Source: Terrisporobacter glycolicus ATCC 14880 = DSM 1288 (GTDB lineage: Bacteria > Bacillota > Clostridia > Peptostreptococcales > Peptostreptococcaceae). From it: a stretch of 64,000 nt of DNA. The notes under the pieces were generated by a model. The model was not told the DNA's origin. It searched no databases and saw nothing but the letters and a program-made list of their open reading frames with translations. The stretch spans positions 372,001 through 436,000 of the forward strand of contig NZ_CP117523.1 in assembly GCF_036812735.1 (NCBI RefSeq), read 5' to 3'. The stretch's first letter is position 1; each line of letters begins with the position of its first letter. Below, in pieces: positions 31,164 through 42,515 of the stretch. The position numbers were made by a program, and so were the translations under genes.

Positions 31164-31197
31164 TAAGAAAATAAAAAATAAGAATATTTATAATAAG

Positions 31198-31236
31198 AAA
31201 GATATAGCTATTATTTTTAGCTGTATCTTTTTTTAT
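31198..31236 (+). terminator. Intrinsic terminator after rnr
   Basis: The 12-base arms 31198-31209 and 31219-31230 pair, with one G-T pair, and a run of Ts follows. The rest of the gap to 31474 is AT-rich. It holds an AATAATTT/AAATTATT inverted repeat (about 31359-31393) but no riboswitch that I recognise. Confidence 0.85.
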
Positions 31237-31473
31237 TGCAAGGATAAAAATCTAATTTTGGAGTATAGGCAAGGTAGTACTATCAGATTACTTCTTTGTG
31301 AGGGAAAAAGAGTATACTTATGGGATAATAAATATATCATACAATGAATATAGAGAATAATTTGTCAATTCATACAATATTGTAAATTATTTTTTTATAA
31401 GTTGAGAAAAGTTTATCTAAATTCATCCCATAGGTATTTCAAAGTTCCTATTAGGGAGTTCAGGGGGGAACAA

Positions 31474-34400
31474 ATGAAGAAAAGTAAATTATTAAAGAAA
31501 GTAGCTTCTATTTTTATGGTAGCGCTAATGGTTATTACTATGATTCCTCAATCAGTGTATGCATCTGAAGTATCAAAAGTTTTAGATGCATCAGATAAGA
31601 AGGTAGTAACTTACATTAATGATCAAGGAAAGGAGATTAAAGTTAATAATGGAGACACACTAAATATATCTACTACAGAGAATGGAACATTTACATGTGA
31701 TGGCTATAGCAGTGGCAGTAAAGATATTGAGTGGCGTACTTCATGGGAAGGTAGTAGTCAGGATAAACCAATCTGGATTGGATTATATAGTGGAGATATT
31801 TCCATTCGTCGTTCGGGAAAAGTTAATGCACAAGTTACAAAAGCAGATACAGGGGAAGTACTATGCGCATTTAATATTGTGGCAGAGGAGAAAAAGGTTG
31901 AAGACATAAAATTATACATTGATGATAAAGAGGTAACCAATGGTACATACACAGTTGCTGGACATCAGTGGAAAGAGATTAAGATAAAAGGAAAATATGC
32001 TGATGATGATAAATATGTAGATTTTTCTAACACTAATGGATTCTCAGTTACATCAGATAAGGATTTTATATCATGTAATAATAATAATATAGTTAGTTTT
32101 GCTTTTAATAAACCAGGAACAGGAGTTATTACTTTAGAAGGTTTTGGAAATAAGGCTTCGGTTAAAGTAACTTCAAGTTATGTACCTGTTGAGTCAGTAA
32201 AATTAAATCTTCGTCCAGAGGTGAAGATGCATCGCTTACAGTATTCTATGGGTTCAGATGATAACTATATTGGTATAGGTCAATCAGAATTAAGTAATGG
32301 CGTTACAATTACTCCTTCAAATAGTAGTAATTATACTGTAGAGTGGAAAGGAAACAACGATAAAGTAGCTTCTTATCATGATACACATAGTAATGGATTT
32401 ATTGGACACGATAGTGGAACTGTAACAATAACTGCATCTGTGGATGATAATGGAAGAAATATTTCTTCATCTTGTGATGTTGAATATGTTTTTGAGAAAC
32501 CTGTTGAGGGAATATCTATGAAGGATGATCAGAATACTTTAACAATAAAAGAAGAAGACAATATGGTATTGCCATTGGTATTTGAGCCAAATGGAGATCA
32601 AGAAGAAGATCAGCCATCGAAAACATCTATGAAATGGGAATTCAGTAAAAATGGTATAGTAGAGATTAAACATAGTAGAGGTCAGTATGACCGCTATGCA
32701 AGTAAGACATTTGTAATGAATGCTCTTGCTCAAGGTACAGTAGAAGTAACAGGAACACCTTTAGCAGCAAAAGATGGAGTAAAACCAGTGAAATTTACTG
32801 TAACAGTAGAAGAAGGTGATACACCACCTCCAAATACTGATAGATTAGTATCTCAGGGAACTTCTAGCTGTAAATCTTATTACTCTAGGTATTGGCAACA
32901 TGATACATGGAAATACACAGATGAATGGGACATAATAGCTCTTAAAAGGTCAGGTATTGGTCTTGGGAAGGATGAAGCAGGGGCTATAGACTCTTACAAA
33001 AGTAGTATTGCCTCTAAAATTGAAGACGGAACATTATCTAATAAAACAAAACCAACTACTTTAGCAAGAGTTGCACTTGCTTTAGAGAGTATTGGTGTTG
33101 ATGCTTCATCATTTGCAGGGTTCAATTTCTACGATGCGTTATTAAATAGTAACAAGATAAATACAGGAAGTAATGAATCAATATGGGCATTGATTGCTTT
33201 AGATGCAAAGAAAACTCCAGTTTCTGAAAAGGTTAAATACGATAGAGATAAGCTTATTGAAACTATTATTTCTTTCCAAACCAAGGATGGAGGGTTTAAT
33301 CTAAGTTCATCTGAAAATGGTGGGGACGTAGACTTAACGGCGATGGCAATACAGGCTCTTTCTAATTATCAAAATAAAAGTAATGCAAAGGAAGCTACAG
33401 AAAAAGCACTTACTTTCTTACGAGATAGTATGGAAAGTTCTTGTGACATGAATGGAACTAGTGAATCTATAGCTCAGACAATTATAGCTGTTTCTTCTCT
33501 TGAAAAAGATATTGCTGATAAAGAAAATGGATTTACAAAAGGAAAGAGTAAGAATATATTTGTGGCAATGGATAAGTATAGAGACTATAGAGGATTTAAA
33601 CATATGAAAGAAGATTCTGATACGAATCATATGTCAACTCAACAAGCGCTACTTGCATTTGCATCATATAATCGCATTAAAAATAATGAAAATACTTTAT
33701 ATGATATGACGGATATATCATCTGAAAATTATGAAGTTCCAGTTATCACTGTAACAGGTGTAGAAAATAATCAAGTAGTTGCAAAAAAAAATATTAAAGT
33801 ACAAATTAGTGCTTCTCATAAAAATGAGAATGTGGAAAATATTAAAGTATGGCTTAATGGAGAAAAAATAGAAGGTAAGGATGGAAATTATACACTTAGC
33901 CTTAAATCGGGAAATAATAGCATGAATATAAAAGCTATATCAAATAATGGAGCATCATCATATTTACAATGGAGCATAAAGTTTGCTACGTTAAATTATC
34001 AAAAGGAAATTAATAATAAAATTACAAAAATGAACTCATGGGCTAAAAGTATTATAAATGAAAATGATTATACATTTTCTGAAAATGAATTGATTATGAC
34101 TTATATGAGAACTGTAGGAAGTAGTTCAAAAATATCAAATAAAGTTTTAGAGAAGCTACAAGAACAAATTAAGTTCAAAAATGTAGATGAATGGACTAAT
34201 ACGATTATGGTACTTCATGCTATGGGAGTTGATGTTAGCAATGTTTACGGTGAAGATTTTTGGAAATATGGAAATTCATTTATAACTTCTCTTTCTCAAC
34301 AAGATAATGTTCAAATTTTAACTGCTATTAATTCAAAATCTGAACAAAATGTACCAAAAGAGATATCTAAAGAGAATCTACTTAACAAAATAGCAACTAA

Positions 34401-37236
34401 TTCAGATGGCGGATTTGGAATAAATGGTAAATCTAACGTATATGAAACAGGTTGTGCTGTGATTGCTCTTGCAAAAGAAGGTAATAGACAAGAAGAAGTT
34501 GAAAAAGCTATTGAATGGTTAGCAGAGAATCATACATCATCAGGAGGTTTTACTCAATTAGGATCTTATAGTGAGTTAAGTTCTACAGCAAAAGTTATGG
34601 AAGCACTTTGTGAAGTAGGAATTGATTTTACATTGGATGATAGATTTAATAATACTGAAAATATTTATACTAAATTAAAAATATTACTTGCAGAATCTGG
34701 AGAAGACCAAAATGAAGATGTATATAGGGCCTTAGCATCATATCAAAGATTATATAATGAAAAAGGATCTATTTATAGTATGGATGATGTAATTGCTCAA
34801 CCTGGTTTAACTACATCTAGAAAGAAAATGGAAGATACAGTAGTAAACTATTTACAAACTATAGATTTTAGTACATATAGCGAAGAGGCTACAGAAGCAG
34901 CTTATCTTTTGATACGCGGTAATGAGGCTACAAAAGCAGTATATAATTATTTAGATGTTCTTAAAGAAGCTATTAAATCAAATCAAGTAACTACTGCAAG
35001 AGAGTATTTCTTTGCAGGACTTTATCTAAAGGAGAATGGTGTAACTCTAACAGATGTAGATAGTACTAATATGCTTTCTAAACTTGATGATTTAGAATAT
35101 ACAACTACAGATAATTTTGGTAGTGTGAAGTCAAGGGCGACAATACCTATGTCTTATGCTCTTATGACCCTAAACTTGGAGCCAAATTATGAAACTAGCT
35201 TAAGAGAAGATTTAACATCAAAAATTGAAAGTAACCGAGTTCCACAATCTAGTTGGACAGGAAAAGGATTTTATTCATATTATAATGAATACTTTGCTCC
35301 TGTAAATCAAGAAGCTACAATAGTTGCAATGATGGCTTTAAAAAGCTCAGAGAAACTTACGGATATAAATTCTTTAATTGACTATTTGGGAGGTAAAGGA
35401 ACAGACGGTCACGATGAGAGACAGCTAGATGCAGGATACTGGGCTGACTACCGTAAGGATTCAAATAAGCTTGTAGGAAATTTAGTTACAACAGCAGATA
35501 TGGTTGTAGGTATTCCAATGTTCGAAGTAGATATACTTTCAGATGCAAGATTTAATAAAGATAACGGAAATGTGGAAGATGGAATAAGAGCATTTTATCG
35601 TGCAAGCGGATTTGCTGATACACCATATAATAATGAAGTAAATACAAAATCATCTATTGGAGGATATCGTGCTTTATTATCACTTCGTTTTGCAGAAAAT
35701 AATGCACCTAGTATTTATGATATAAATACCAAACGTGAGATAGATAAAACAACTTTAGAATCTAAAATAAAAGAAGCTGATACACTTAAAAAAGATGATT
35801 ATATAATAGAAACTTGGACAGTATTTGAGAAAGCTCTGGAAGAGGCAAAAATTATAGTAAAACAAGAGGTAGTAACTCAAAAGGAAATAAATTTAGCATT
35901 AGAATCACTTAGAAATGCTATGAATGGATTAGAAGAATATAATGAAATTAATGTTACTTTCCGTCTTATGGGAGATTGGAAACATGATGATAAAAATGAA
36001 CATACAGGATATGTAAACTGGATTAAGACACGTTCATATACAGTTTCAAAAGATGCTAAAGTATATGATATATTTGAAAAAGCTATGAAAGACTCAGGCC
36101 TTAAGAATACAGTTACAGACTCGAATTATGTATCTATGATTCAAGCACCAGAAGTTTTTGGTTCATATGTGCTTTCTCAAGGTGATAATGGAGTAAATAG
36201 TGCATGGCAATATATGATTAATGGAGAGTATTCAAAAGTAGGTTTAAATGAATGTAAACTTTCGGATGGTGATGTTATCGTCTTGAGATATGTTGATGAT
36301 TATACAAATGAATTAGATATGAATGAAGCATGGAAAAAAGTTGAAGATTTAGAACCTACAGAGGTTTTTGAAAAGATACGTGCTAGTGCTAAGATGGAAC
36401 TTAAGAAATATGTTGATATGGAAGATTATGAAAAGGAACAACAAAAATCTATTGAATCAATTTTAGATAAAGCTATGAAACAGTTAGACAAAGTAAAAGA
36501 TACTGTAGAAGTTAAGGAAATAGTAACTGAAGCTAAAAATGATTTAGATGAAATACCTACAAAAGCTGAAATAGAAGAAGAGGCACAAAAAGAGCTATTA
36601 CAAATTAAAGAAAAAGCAAAAGAAATTTTATCTTCATATAAAAATTTATCTCTATATGAAGATAAAGAAAAAGCGGAACTTAATAAAATTTTAGAAAAAG
36701 CATTTATTAGTATTGATGAAGCGAAGAGTAAATCAGAAGTTGAAAAAATAGTAACTAGCACTAAGGCAAAAATGGATGATATTGAAACAGCAGAAAAAAT
36801 AGCTATTGATAGAGTTATAGAAGCTATTAATAAAATAGAAAATCCAGTTACTATAGATCAAAAGCCTATAATTGAAGCTGCAAGAGAAAAATATAATGCT
36901 TTGACAAAGGATCAGAAAAAGCAAGTAACTAATTATGAAATATTAGTTAAGGCTGAAGAAGATTTAAATAAATTAGTGAATGATGACTCTAGTAACAATG
37001 GTTCTGAAGGAAATAAACCAGATGGGGATGATTCTAATAATAATGGTTCTGAAGATAATAAGCCAGATGGAGATGACTCTAATAATAATGAACATAATAA
37101 TTCTCAAGATGATGATGTTAAAACAGGAGATAACACTCAGATAGGGTTTATAGTATGTTCATTAATACTAGCAATAGGTGGAATCTATTTAGTAGAACTT
37201 GAAAGACGTAGGGGTAAAATTAAGTCTAATAAGTAA
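31474..37236 (+). CDS. Large cell-wall-anchored surface protein with terpenoid-cyclase-like repeats and a DUF4430 (transcobalamin-like) domain
   Basis: This 1920-residue secreted protein has a signal peptide (residues 1-31, ending SVYA). Bacterial Ig-like modules follow (about 35-450). Then come helical segments resembling alpha/alpha-toroid repeats of the prenyltransferase/terpenoid-cyclase fold (about 460-740, 845-1100 and 1120-1410), with an Ig-like module between the first two. A FIVAR-like segment (about 1416-1490), a DUF4430 domain (about 1491-1613, with SAWQYMINGEYSKVGLNECKL) and a charged coiled coil (about 1620-1836) lead to an Asn/Asp/Gly-rich linker. The end has a VKTGD sorting-type motif (1882-1886), a membrane helix and a basic tail. 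Toroid plus DUF4430 is the layout of transcobalamin and intrinsic factor, so small-molecule (corrinoid) binding is possible but unproven. ATG 31474 follows AGGGGGGA. Confidence 0.85.
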   Translation: MKKSKLLKKVASIFMVALMVITMIPQSVYASEVSKVLDASDKKVVTYINDQGKEIKVNNGDTLNISTTENGTFTCDGYSSGSKDIEWRTSWEGSSQDKPIWIGLYSGDISIRRSGKVNAQVTKADTGEVLCAFNIVAEEKKVEDIKLYIDDKEVTNGTYTVAGHQWKEIKIKGKYADDDKYVDFSNTNGFSVTSDKDFISCNNNNIVSFAFNKPGTGVITLEGFGNKASVKVTSSYVPVESVKLNLRPEVKMHRLQYSMGSDDNYIGIGQSELSNGVTITPSNSSNYTVEWKGNNDKVASYHDTHSNGFIGHDSGTVTITASVDDNGRNISSSCDVEYVFEKPVEGISMKDDQNTLTIKEEDNMVLPLVFEPNGDQEEDQPSKTSMKWEFSKNGIVEIKHSRGQYDRYASKTFVMNALAQGTVEVTGTPLAAKDGVKPVKFTVTVEEGDTPPPNTDRLVSQGTSSCKSYYSRYWQHDTWKYTDEWDIIALKRSGIGLGKDEAGAIDSYKSSIASKIEDGTLSNKTKPTTLARVALALESIGVDASSFAGFNFYDALLNSNKINTGSNESIWALIALDAKKTPVSEKVKYDRDKLIETIISFQTKDGGFNLSSSENGGDVDLTAMAIQALSNYQNKSNAKEATEKALTFLRDSMESSCDMNGTSESIAQTIIAVSSLEKDIADKENGFTKGKSKNIFVAMDKYRDYRGFKHMKEDSDTNHMSTQQALLAFASYNRIKNNENTLYDMTDISSENYEVPVITVTGVENNQVVAKKNIKVQISASHKNENVENIKVWLNGEKIEGKDGNYTLSLKSGNNSMNIKAISNNGASSYLQWSIKFATLNYQKEINNKITKMNSWAKSIINENDYTFSENELIMTYMRTVGSSSKISNKVLEKLQEQIKFKNVDEWTNTIMVLHAMGVDVSNVYGEDFWKYGNSFITSLSQQDNVQILTAINSKSEQNVPKEISKENLLNKIATNSDGGFGINGKSNVYETGCAVIALAKEGNRQEEVEKAIEWLAENHTSSGGFTQLGSYSELSSTAKVMEALCEVGIDFTLDDRFNNTENIYTKLKILLAESGEDQNEDVYRALASYQRLYNEKGSIYSMDDVIAQPGLTTSRKKMEDTVVNYLQTIDFSTYSEEATEAAYLLIRGNEATKAVYNYLDVLKEAIKSNQVTTAREYFFAGLYLKENGVTLTDVDSTNMLSKLDDLEYTTTDNFGSVKSRATIPMSYALMTLNLEPNYETSLREDLTSKIESNRVPQSSWTGKGFYSYYNEYFAPVNQEATIVAMMALKSSEKLTDINSLIDYLGGKGTDGHDERQLDAGYWADYRKDSNKLVGNLVTTADMVVGIPMFEVDILSDARFNKDNGNVEDGIRAFYRASGFADTPYNNEVNTKSSIGGYRALLSLRFAENNAPSIYDINTKREIDKTTLESKIKEADTLKKDDYIIETWTVFEKALEEAKIIVKQEVVTQKEINLALESLRNAMNGLEEYNEINVTFRLMGDWKHDDKNEHTGYVNWIKTRSYTVSKDAKVYDIFEKAMKDSGLKNTVTDSNYVSMIQAPEVFGSYVLSQGDNGVNSAWQYMINGEYSKVGLNECKLSDGDVIVLRYVDDYTNELDMNEAWKKVEDLEPTEVFEKIRASAKMELKKYVDMEDYEKEQQKSIESILDKAMKQLDKVKDTVEVKEIVTEAKNDLDEIPTKAEIEEEAQKELLQIKEKAKEILSSYKNLSLYEDKEKAELNKILEKAFISIDEAKSKSEVEKIVTSTKAKMDDIETAEKIAIDRVIEAINKIENPVTIDQKPIIEAAREKYNALTKDQKKQVTNYEILVKAEEDLNKLVNDDSSNNGSEGNKPDGDDSNNNGSEDNKPDGDDSNNNEHNNSQDDDVKTGDNTQIGFIVCSLILAIGGIYLVELERRRGKIKSNK

Positions 37237-37356
37237 TAAAAAATAAGTTTACTAGTAATTTATTAACTTTTAATTGTTAAGTTTGTAGAATTATGTATTA
37301 ATAATTTAAAATAAAATAGGGTTATTTAACCTTAATGTAACACATTTCGCAAAAGA

Positions 37357-37376
37357 TTAAGATACAATTATCTTAA
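37357..37376. promoter_or_regulatory. Perfect 8-4-8 inverted repeat upstream of 37415
   Basis: TTAAGATA and TATCTTAA flank CAAT, 38 bases before the start of an unrecognised gene. No T-run follows, so an operator is more likely than a terminator. The binding protein is unknown. Confidence 0.45.
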
Positions 37377-37414
37377 GATATTTCAAAATTAAAAATAATT
37401 GGAGTGTTGTTGTT

Positions 37415-37810
37415 ATGCTTAAGGTTATTAATTCTATTGGAAGTAATATTGAGACTAGTAATGGAAAAAGTATAAGTAGGTGTAATAAAACAGCAGGAGC
37501 AGAAAAGGTATATGAAAGAAAAGAGTATATTATTTTAAAGGTTAAAAAAGGCTACATAGTGTATAACACAAAAAAAGTATTTGAAAATGGTCATACCCAT
37601 CTTCAAAGTTTTGAAATGTCCAAGACGGTTATTGACAATAGTATAAGAAAGAAAAGACCAAAAACTAATAATATTTATTTAATAGAAAGTCATATTAGGG
37701 TCACTAATGACAGTAAATATAAGCAAATATTAGAAGAACTAATAAAAGCTAAAAAAGATAAAACTAAAGATAACAAATATCACAACAAAAGTTATTGCAA
37801 TGCTTGTTAA
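37415..37810 (+). CDS. Hypothetical protein, 131 residues
   Basis: I do not recognise this protein. It is basic, has no signal peptide or membrane helix, and ends with NKSYCNAC. The middle part (YIILKVKKGYIVYNTKKVFE) suggests small beta-strands, and the C-terminal third is lysine-rich and probably helical. The start is preceded by TTGGAGTG. It is monocistronic, with a perfect palindrome upstream and a strong terminator downstream, which supports a real gene. Its role is unknown. Confidence 0.65.
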   Translation: MLKVINSIGSNIETSNGKSISRCNKTAGAEKVYERKEYIILKVKKGYIVYNTKKVFENGHTHLQSFEMSKTVIDNSIRKKRPKTNNIYLIESHIRVTNDSKYKQILEELIKAKKDKTKDNKYHNKSYCNAC

Positions 37811-40699: not shown

Positions 40700-41389
40700 A
40701 TGGCTAGTAAAATTCTTGTAGTAGATGATGAAAAAGAAATTAGAAATTTAATTGAAATATATTTGAAAAATGAAGGTTATACTGTGATAAAAGCCAGTAA
40801 TGGAGAGGAAGCTCTTAAGGTATTGGAAAAAGAGGAAATACAACTTATGATACTAGATATAATGATGCCAAAGATGGATGGAATGGAAGTATGCAGAAGG
40901 GTTAGAGAACATTTAAATATACCTATTCTTATGCTTAGTGCTAAGTCTGAAGACATGGACAAGATTGCGGGTATTATGACTGGGGCAGACGATTATTTAA
41001 CAAAGCCTTTTAATCCATTGGAATTATCAGTAAGAGTAAAGGCACTTCTTAGAAGAACTTATTATTTTAATAACATGAACAAAGAAGAAGATATTATAAA
41101 TATTGAAACTTTGACTATAGATAAAAATAATAGAACAGTTAAAGTTGGAGACACAGAAATAACTTTTACAGCGAGGGAGTTTGATATTTTATATTTACTA
41201 GGTAGCAATAGGGGGAGAGTTTATAGTTCGGAAGAAATATTTACTAAGGTATGGAAAGAAGATTATTTTGGTTCAAACAACACGGTTATGGTTCACATGA
41301 GTAGAATAAGAGAAAAGTTAGAAAAATATATAGAAGGAAATAAAATAATTCAAACTGTATGGGGAGTTGGTTATAAAATTGAAAAATAA
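40700..41389 (+). CDS. OmpR-family response regulator (VanR-like)
   Basis: This 229-residue regulator has a receiver domain with the acidic pair Asp9-Asp10, the phosphate-accepting Asp53 (MILDIMMPKMDG) and the switch lysine in LTKPFNPLE. A winged-helix DNA-binding domain follows (FTAREFDILYLL; VHMSRIREKLE; WGVGYKIE). The pattern is VanR-like. It lies between the carboxypeptidase and the kinase, and its end overlaps the kinase start by 11 bases. It probably controls the carboxypeptidase in response to a cell-envelope signal. Confidence 0.93.
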   Translation: MASKILVVDDEKEIRNLIEIYLKNEGYTVIKASNGEEALKVLEKEEIQLMILDIMMPKMDGMEVCRRVREHLNIPILMLSAKSEDMDKIAGIMTGADDYLTKPFNPLELSVRVKALLRRTYYFNNMNKEEDIINIETLTIDKNNRTVKVGDTEITFTAREFDILYLLGSNRGRVYSSEEIFTKVWKEDYFGSNNTVMVHMSRIREKLEKYIEGNKIIQTVWGVGYKIEK

Positions 41390-42515
41390 AAGAAGGATTT
41401 TTAAATATATAATAATCAGCGCTTTAGAATTTGTAATAAGTGTAATATTAAGCTTAGCTACTTTTTGGATATTATATAAAGTAACTTATGATTTATATAT
41501 TAATTATCGAACTCCAATATTAAATGTAGTAATTAAAGCTTTGTTTAGATTGAACGATAATTTTTTTGCAGGAAATATATACGGAATTATAGGAATTTTA
41601 ATTTTTCTTTCAATATATTCTCTTATTACTTATAAGAAGTATAGAAATGTATCACTGTTAGTGGATAATGTGGAAGAAATGTCAAAAGGAAATTTGGACA
41701 AGAAAATAGAGATAAAATCAAGGGGAGATATTGATCAAGTAGCACAAAATATTAATAGTATAGTTGAGCAGCTGAAAGATATAACTGTGGAAGAGAGGAA
41801 AGCTCAACAAACTAAGACGGACTTGATTACAAATGTATCTCACGATTTAAGAACACCTTTAACTTCAGTTATAGGATATTTAAATCTTATTGAAGAAGGA
41901 AGATACAAGGATGAAGTGGAGCTTATGTACTACGTGGATATAGCTTACGAAAAATCTTTAAACTTAAACATACTGATTAACGATTTATTTGAACTTACTA
42001 AAATGCAAAATAGAGTTGTTAATTTTAATAAAGTAGAACTAAATTTAGTAGAGCTAATAGGTCAGTTAATTTCTCAGTTTGAAATACAATTTAGACAAGA
42101 AAATATGAATTGTAGAATAGACTTTTCTGTGGACAAACTTATATTAAATGCTGATCCAATTAAGTTAGTAAGAGCTTTTGAAAATCTTATTACAAATGCC
42201 ATGAGATATGGAAAAGATGGACATTATGTGGATATAAAAGTATTTACAGAAAAGAAAATGGCAGTAGTCCAGGTAATAAATTATGGAGAGCCTATTCCAA
42301 TACTGGATCTACCTCATATATTTGATAGATTTTATAGAGTAGAAAAATCAAGAAATACATTCAAAGGTGGCTCAGGTTTAGGACTTGCCATTACAAAAAA
42401 TATTATAGAAGCTCATGATGGAAGTATTTGTGCTATTAGCAATAATGAAAGTACTATTTTTGAAGTTAAAATACCATATTTAGATGAAGATAAACTCTAC
42501 AAGTTAACAGAATAA
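41379..42515 (+). CDS. Sensor histidine kinase (VanS-like)
   Basis: This membrane kinase has two N-terminal transmembrane segments (about residues 10-35 and 65-85) with a short external loop. A HAMP linker and the phosphoacceptor motif VSHDLRTPLTS follow, then ATP-binding boxes (ENLITNAMRYG; GGSGLGLAI). The start is not certain. TTG 41379 lies 12 bases after GGGGAG, while TTG 41367 directly abuts that site. Either start overlaps the response regulator gene. The kinase should phosphorylate the adjacent VanR-like regulator. Confidence 0.9.
   Translation: MKNKRRIFKYIIISALEFVISVILSLATFWILYKVTYDLYINYRTPILNVVIKALFRLNDNFFAGNIYGIIGILIFLSIYSLITYKKYRNVSLLVDNVEEMSKGNLDKKIEIKSRGDIDQVAQNINSIVEQLKDITVEERKAQQTKTDLITNVSHDLRTPLTSVIGYLNLIEEGRYKDEVELMYYVDIAYEKSLNLNILINDLFELTKMQNRVVNFNKVELNLVELIGQLISQFEIQFRQENMNCRIDFSVDKLILNADPIKLVRAFENLITNAMRYGKDGHYVDIKVFTEKKMAVVQVINYGEPIPILDLPHIFDRFYRVEKSRNTFKGGSGLGLAITKNIIEAHDGSICAISNNESTIFEVKIPYLDEDKLYKLTE

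Follow-up and report, generated by a model that had tools for sequence, protein, structure and literature searches.

The window analysed here is a stretch of 64,000 nt from Terrisporobacter glycolicus ATCC 14880 = DSM 1288 (NZ_CP117523.1, assembly GCF_036812735.1, positions 372,001–436,000 of the forward strand). It contains a complete gene at 31474–37236 (+ strand, as are all gene features below), a real open reading frame whose ATG follows AGGGGGGA and which encodes a secreted, wall-anchored protein of 1,920 a.a. By reading the sequence we recognized a signal peptide (residues ∼1–32, 31474–31569; MKKSKLLKK...MVITMIPQSVYA). It is followed by an Ig-like stalk of the Big_2 type (residues ∼35–455, 31576–32838), which has a weak, sub-cut-off Big_2 match and a like layout in the closest relative of the protein (L082, see below). 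A profile of 29 toroids (28 from related loci and toroid 1 of this protein) finds exactly three toroids: toroid 1 (residues 459–754, 32848–33735; 282 bits, toroid 1 being itself a member of the profile), and the divergent toroid 2 (residues 843–1107, 34000–34794; 68 bits) and toroid 3 (residues 1125–1423, 34846–35742; 38 bits). In Pfam, a Prenyltrans toroid match at toroid 1 is above the curated cut-off (E 3.4e-6), and an Ig-like Big_7 domain between toroids 1 and 2 (residues 756–819, 33739–33930) is slightly under it. Toroid 3 leads into a FIVAR-like helical linker without a Pfam call (residues ∼1424–1490, 35743–35943), and then into a DUF4430 domain (PF14478; residues 1530–1606, 36061–36291; 35.9 bits for a curated cut-off of 23.8, E 1.1e-8). 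The C-terminal part, read like the linker directly from the protein, consists of helical repeats with a D/N/S/G-rich spacer (36322–37107) and a sortase-type anchor made of VKTGD, a membrane helix and a basic tail (37108–37233); a V(K/Q)TGD motif is also present in the DUF4430 proteins of two other loci (L010 and L048). The original prediction of about three sets of toroid-like repeats on a wall-anchored surface protein agrees with this layout. Matches of the whole protein to Grb2 SH2 and other domains in a single-sequence phmmer search of the PDB (E ∼0.03 to 0.2) were taken as chance, and a whole-protein scan of the genome contigs found no close relative.

The gene is a single-gene presence/absence of ∼6 kb (31164–37414), lying between rnr and an orphan ORF at 37415. 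In one sister species (G005), rnr is directly followed by sequence matching the window from ∼37261 onward, and the empty site has a different rnr terminator; two more genomes (G003 and G001) are also without the gene at the corresponding site. No ortholog was found in the five other genomes of the genus, which have paralogues at most. A search of the 64-kb window found no cobalamin riboswitch or other Rfam regulator near the gene, and none of the neighbours tested (among them genes for VanY, SelO, methionine sulfoxide reductase, a GH25 protein, and a VanR-like regulator with its kinase) is related to B12. Within the window, the earlier remark that neither a B12 riboswitch nor a B12 transporter lies nearby is correct.

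Toroid 1 (modelled with AlphaFold2 together with the 28 other toroid sequences) is predicted with high confidence to be a 12-helix alpha/alpha barrel (pLDDT 93.9, pTM 0.93), i.e. a six-hairpin toroid N-terminal to the beta domain, the order being toroids, then DUF4430. Its top PDB match by Foldseek is transcobalamin (4zrp, E 8e-5), and many more transcobalamin chains match at TM 0.47–0.58; other matches include terpene cyclases (TM mostly 0.33–0.5), GH76 (∼0.5) and C3d. The model of toroid 1 is therefore compatible with a toroid of the transcobalamin type, and the fold match is not specific to transcobalamin. By sequence, the toroid profile finds squalene–hopene cyclase, prenyltransferases, alpha-2-macroglobulin and C3; transcobalamin is absent among the best 60 matches listed, so that homology to its toroid is undetected at this level.

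The signal for a cobalamin-carrier fold is clearer for the model of the DUF4430 domain (pLDDT 84.6), which was built separately from toroid 1. Its 19 best PDB matches are to transcobalamin (including the isolated beta domain with and without cyanocobalamin), intrinsic factor, haptocorrin and, with two chains, the Ruminococcus gnavus protein 3u7z, which has the title 'putative metal binding protein'. The model has the five-stranded beta-grasp of the transcobalamin C-terminal type, and in the modelled construct helix 39–50 is followed by strands 53–56 and 62–66, which fits the beta-hairpin insert used to define the transcobalamin clade (PMC1796856). The sequence of this copy is divergent: the family motifs SGWMY..NG..PN.G and LYEFDGG are altered, with the Tyr of the NYV segment retained and the family LYEF exchanged for a longer VFGSYV stretch. 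When the DUF4430 profile is compared with PDB sequences, transcobalamin is reached only at E 1.7, which is not significant by itself. Both structural proposals made earlier for this protein, i.e. alpha/alpha toroids (here for toroid 1) and a transcobalamin-type beta domain, hold in the models.

Upstream of the gene, positions 31251–31390 match the sequence that directly precedes the cobalamin riboswitch of a DUF4430 operon elsewhere in the same genome (blastn E 1e-21, ∼70–74% identity; other copy at ∼1408060–1408190), and copies are also found in two sister genomes. This promoter/leader element of 135 bp occurs twice in the genome, ahead of this gene and of the operon at 1,408 kb, and its 35-base core is found nowhere else in the 4.06 Mb; the reversed control contains no copy. 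In the operon the element is followed by the riboswitch (1408200–1408391), a gene for a small secreted protein and a gene for a 2,042-aa wall-anchored DUF4430 protein that also has repeats resembling the adhesin HupY (at ∼1,409 kb; L048:401–7808, corresponding to 1408200–1415607); in the window it is followed by ∼84 bases to the start codon. The gene in the window thus appears to share transcription signals, without the B12 switch, with a B12-controlled paralogue. A low-threshold Rfam search of the leader gave chance matches only. The leader has a somewhat better fold than its shuffled versions (z −2.7); as the main stem takes in bases of the likely promoter or further upstream, we make no claim of a riboswitch. 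A long imperfect inverted repeat spans the likely promoter and the 5′ leader (31313–31327 and 31424–31438; TATACTTATGGGAT and ATCCCATAGGTATTT). VanR-like response regulators paired with histidine kinases are found near both promoter copies (40700–42515 of the window, and L009:7683–9972), and are possible candidates for regulators of the shared promoter.

We surveyed 19 genomes of the same family that carry DUF4430, with 100 cobalamin riboswitches and 54 DUF4430 domains listed in full, counting pairs in which DUF4430 is downstream of the riboswitch on the same strand. Within 1.5 kb of a riboswitch there are 13 of the 54 domains (0.07 expected), within 3 kb 18 (0.14 expected) and within 10 kb 28 (0.46 expected); domains in one operon are not independent, and the 28 are spread over 14 separate contigs. 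Such pairs occur in 13 of the 19 genomes. In other families of the order, at least 16 out of 61 DUF4430 domains show the association with riboswitches. The toroids nearest to toroid 1 are found in riboswitch clusters (L083, L084 and L092). Large dedicated loci of tens of kilobases were also observed in other families of the order, where several cobalamin riboswitches are interleaved with many DUF4430 genes (L088 and L089, in G117:C12 and G051:C8).

The closest relative of the protein, L082, comes from another genus (35% identity over residues 45–750 of the 1,920 a.a.) and is a wall-anchored Ig–toroid protein without DUF4430. Directly after it are genes for a secreted DUF4430 protein, EcfT, EcfAA and an S component, so toroid and DUF4430 are on separate, adjoining proteins there. 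The sole PDB match of this S component is CbrT (6fnp), an S component for B12, at E 5e-9. Ahead of the cluster (L082:3347–7890) we observed a FecCD-type ABC transporter and a globin-like gene, a hint at heme or iron as an alternative ligand.

The genome of T. glycolicus itself has six DUF4430 matches, three of them in one cluster at 3.12–3.14 Mb, which encodes a DUF4430–toroid protein of 1,496 a.a., a DUF4430 protein of 603 a.a., a DUF4430 lipoprotein, a 584-aa toroid protein whose tail reads as dockerin-like, a membrane-anchored cohesin protein, and a transporter made of EcfT, a fused EcfAA and an S component. The best solved relative of this S component is again CbrT (E 4e-10), far ahead of others. 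In this cluster (L007/L008), and likewise in L084 and L090, a toroid protein with a dockerin-like part and a cohesin anchored in the membrane are neighbours of a DUF4430 lipoprotein and of an ECF transporter of the CbrT type; this cellulosome-style attachment within a putative cluster for vitamin uptake is conserved in at least three genomes. Two importer sets of the BtuFCD type, with permeases of the BtuC/FecC family, are under cobalamin riboswitches; their substrate proteins match both BtuF and the heme-binding IsdE, each below the cut-off. Genes for cobyric acid synthase, CobB, CbiB and CobD also lie behind a cobalamin riboswitch. Co-occurrence with corrinoid genes, suggested earlier as a check, is therefore positive, in the form of the riboswitches, the CbrT-like ECF transporters and the promoter that this gene has in common with a riboswitch-controlled operon.

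We consider it rather probable that the 1,920-aa protein captures corrinoids (cofactors of the B12 type or their precursors) at the cell surface. The folds predicted for toroid 1 and DUF4430, together with the genome context, support the earlier suggestion of a surface corrinoid scavenger as a predicted role. The protein would be exported and then fixed covalently to the wall by sortase, with the Ig-like and helical spacers holding the capture domains outward. As in transcobalamin, a corrinoid may be clamped with an alpha/alpha toroid on one side and the beta-grasp domain, DUF4430, on the other. The bound cofactor could then pass to the CbrT-like ECF transporter and the DUF4430 lipoprotein that accompanies it, or to the ABC importers of the BtuFCD type that are under B12 riboswitches. 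If so, the Gram-positive wall would hold B12-type cofactors by the two-domain logic of animal intrinsic factor and transcobalamin. Against the corrinoid reading we count that the gene has no B12 riboswitch of its own and unrelated neighbours, that the profile matches of the toroids are not to transcobalamin, that the DUF4430 copy and two of the three toroids are divergent, and that neither the ECF cluster of this genome nor the stretch with the L082 cluster has a cobalamin riboswitch. As the genome has B12 synthesis genes, a pure auxotroph–scavenger role does not fit here unless it is adjusted.

We give a limited chance to a more tentative idea, that of a modular surface assembly for corrinoid capture: the toroids would supply the alpha halves and the DUF4430 domains the beta halves, on different proteins that complete each other's corrinoid sites. 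Some toroids may be docked by dockerin-like tails to a membrane-anchored cohesin beside a CbrT-like importer, and the 1,920-aa protein, which has three toroids to a single DUF4430, would be a multi-toroid, wall-bound part.

It is unlikely, while deserving some weight, that the protein is a two-domain surface receptor of the same class for a ligand other than a corrinoid (heme, another tetrapyrrole, a metal chelate or another cofactor). The authors of PMC1796856 and a reviewer allow for more kinds of ligand in this clade, and heme has a known ECF importer (PMC7299338). Such a ligand would suit the FecCD-type transporter and globin-like gene adjoining L082, the title of 3u7z, and a stretch of the riboswitch-controlled 2,042-aa DUF4430 protein that matches the leucine-rich repeat adhesin HupY (sub-cut-off), but the cobalamin riboswitches ahead of DUF4430 genes in 13 of the 19 genomes and the S components that match CbrT best argue for corrinoids. 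We give still less credence to a former receptor turned adhesin or structural stalk, with divergent toroids and DUF4430 that would no longer bind a small ligand: the weak matches of toroids 2 and 3, the altered DUF4430 motifs, the long Ig-like and helical repeats and the isolated, accessory nature of a gene missing in the sister species point that way, whereas toroid 1 is well kept with a confident fold and the promoter common to the riboswitch operon is retained. That the toroids are enzymes, similar to terpene cyclases or glycoside hydrolases, is very improbable in spite of the profile matches to squalene–hopene cyclase and the fold matches to drimenyl diphosphate synthase and GH76, and was rejected because the catalytic DxDD of class II cyclases is replaced by DVDL in toroid 1 and mostly by D-x-D-(I/L/M) across the family, in a protein that is exported and wall-bound and belongs to a family of toroids paired with DUF4430 and B12 control.

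A corrinoid capture protein of this kind belongs to a class that is not new. Burroughs, Balaji, Iyer and Aravind (2007; PMC1796856) described bacterial SLBB domains of the transcobalamin clade with toroids fused on either side, Gram-positive anchors, Ig-like and FIVAR domains, paralogues in the same operon and CbiO/CbiQ genes, and proposed B12 scavenging for them, in bacteria that are usually without key enzymes of B12 synthesis; riboswitches, cohesin and dockerin are unmentioned there. The 1,920-aa protein is likewise secreted and wall-anchored, combines DUF4430/SLBB with toroid, Ig-like and FIVAR parts and has the same predicted role, but it has three toroids per chain, its gene is alone without transporter genes, and B12 synthesis genes are present in the genome. 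New beyond that description are the riboswitch statistics, the link to CbrT, the shared promoter and the triple toroid. In the literature searched (most subscription papers and all preprints were outside its scope), we found no experimental B12 test of a bacterial DUF4430.

The animal carriers (transcobalamin, intrinsic factor and haptocorrin) also have a toroid before a beta-grasp domain and are the best solved matches of both modelled domains. They have one toroid where this protein has three, together with a FIVAR-like linker before the beta domain and a wall anchor; its toroid sequence is not detectably closer to transcobalamin than to other toroids, and corrinoid binding is predicted only. 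BtuG and BtuH of Bacteroides (PMC6143338, PMC8941943) capture B12 at the surface ahead of membrane uptake, as is predicted here, but are outer-membrane systems of Gram-negatives; the likeness is one of functional analogy only. ECF-CbrT of Lactobacillus delbrueckii (PMC5997447) is what the S components of the DUF4430 clusters match best among solved proteins; CbrT is a membrane importer, and the 1,920-aa protein, which does not adjoin one, would act upstream of such an importer.
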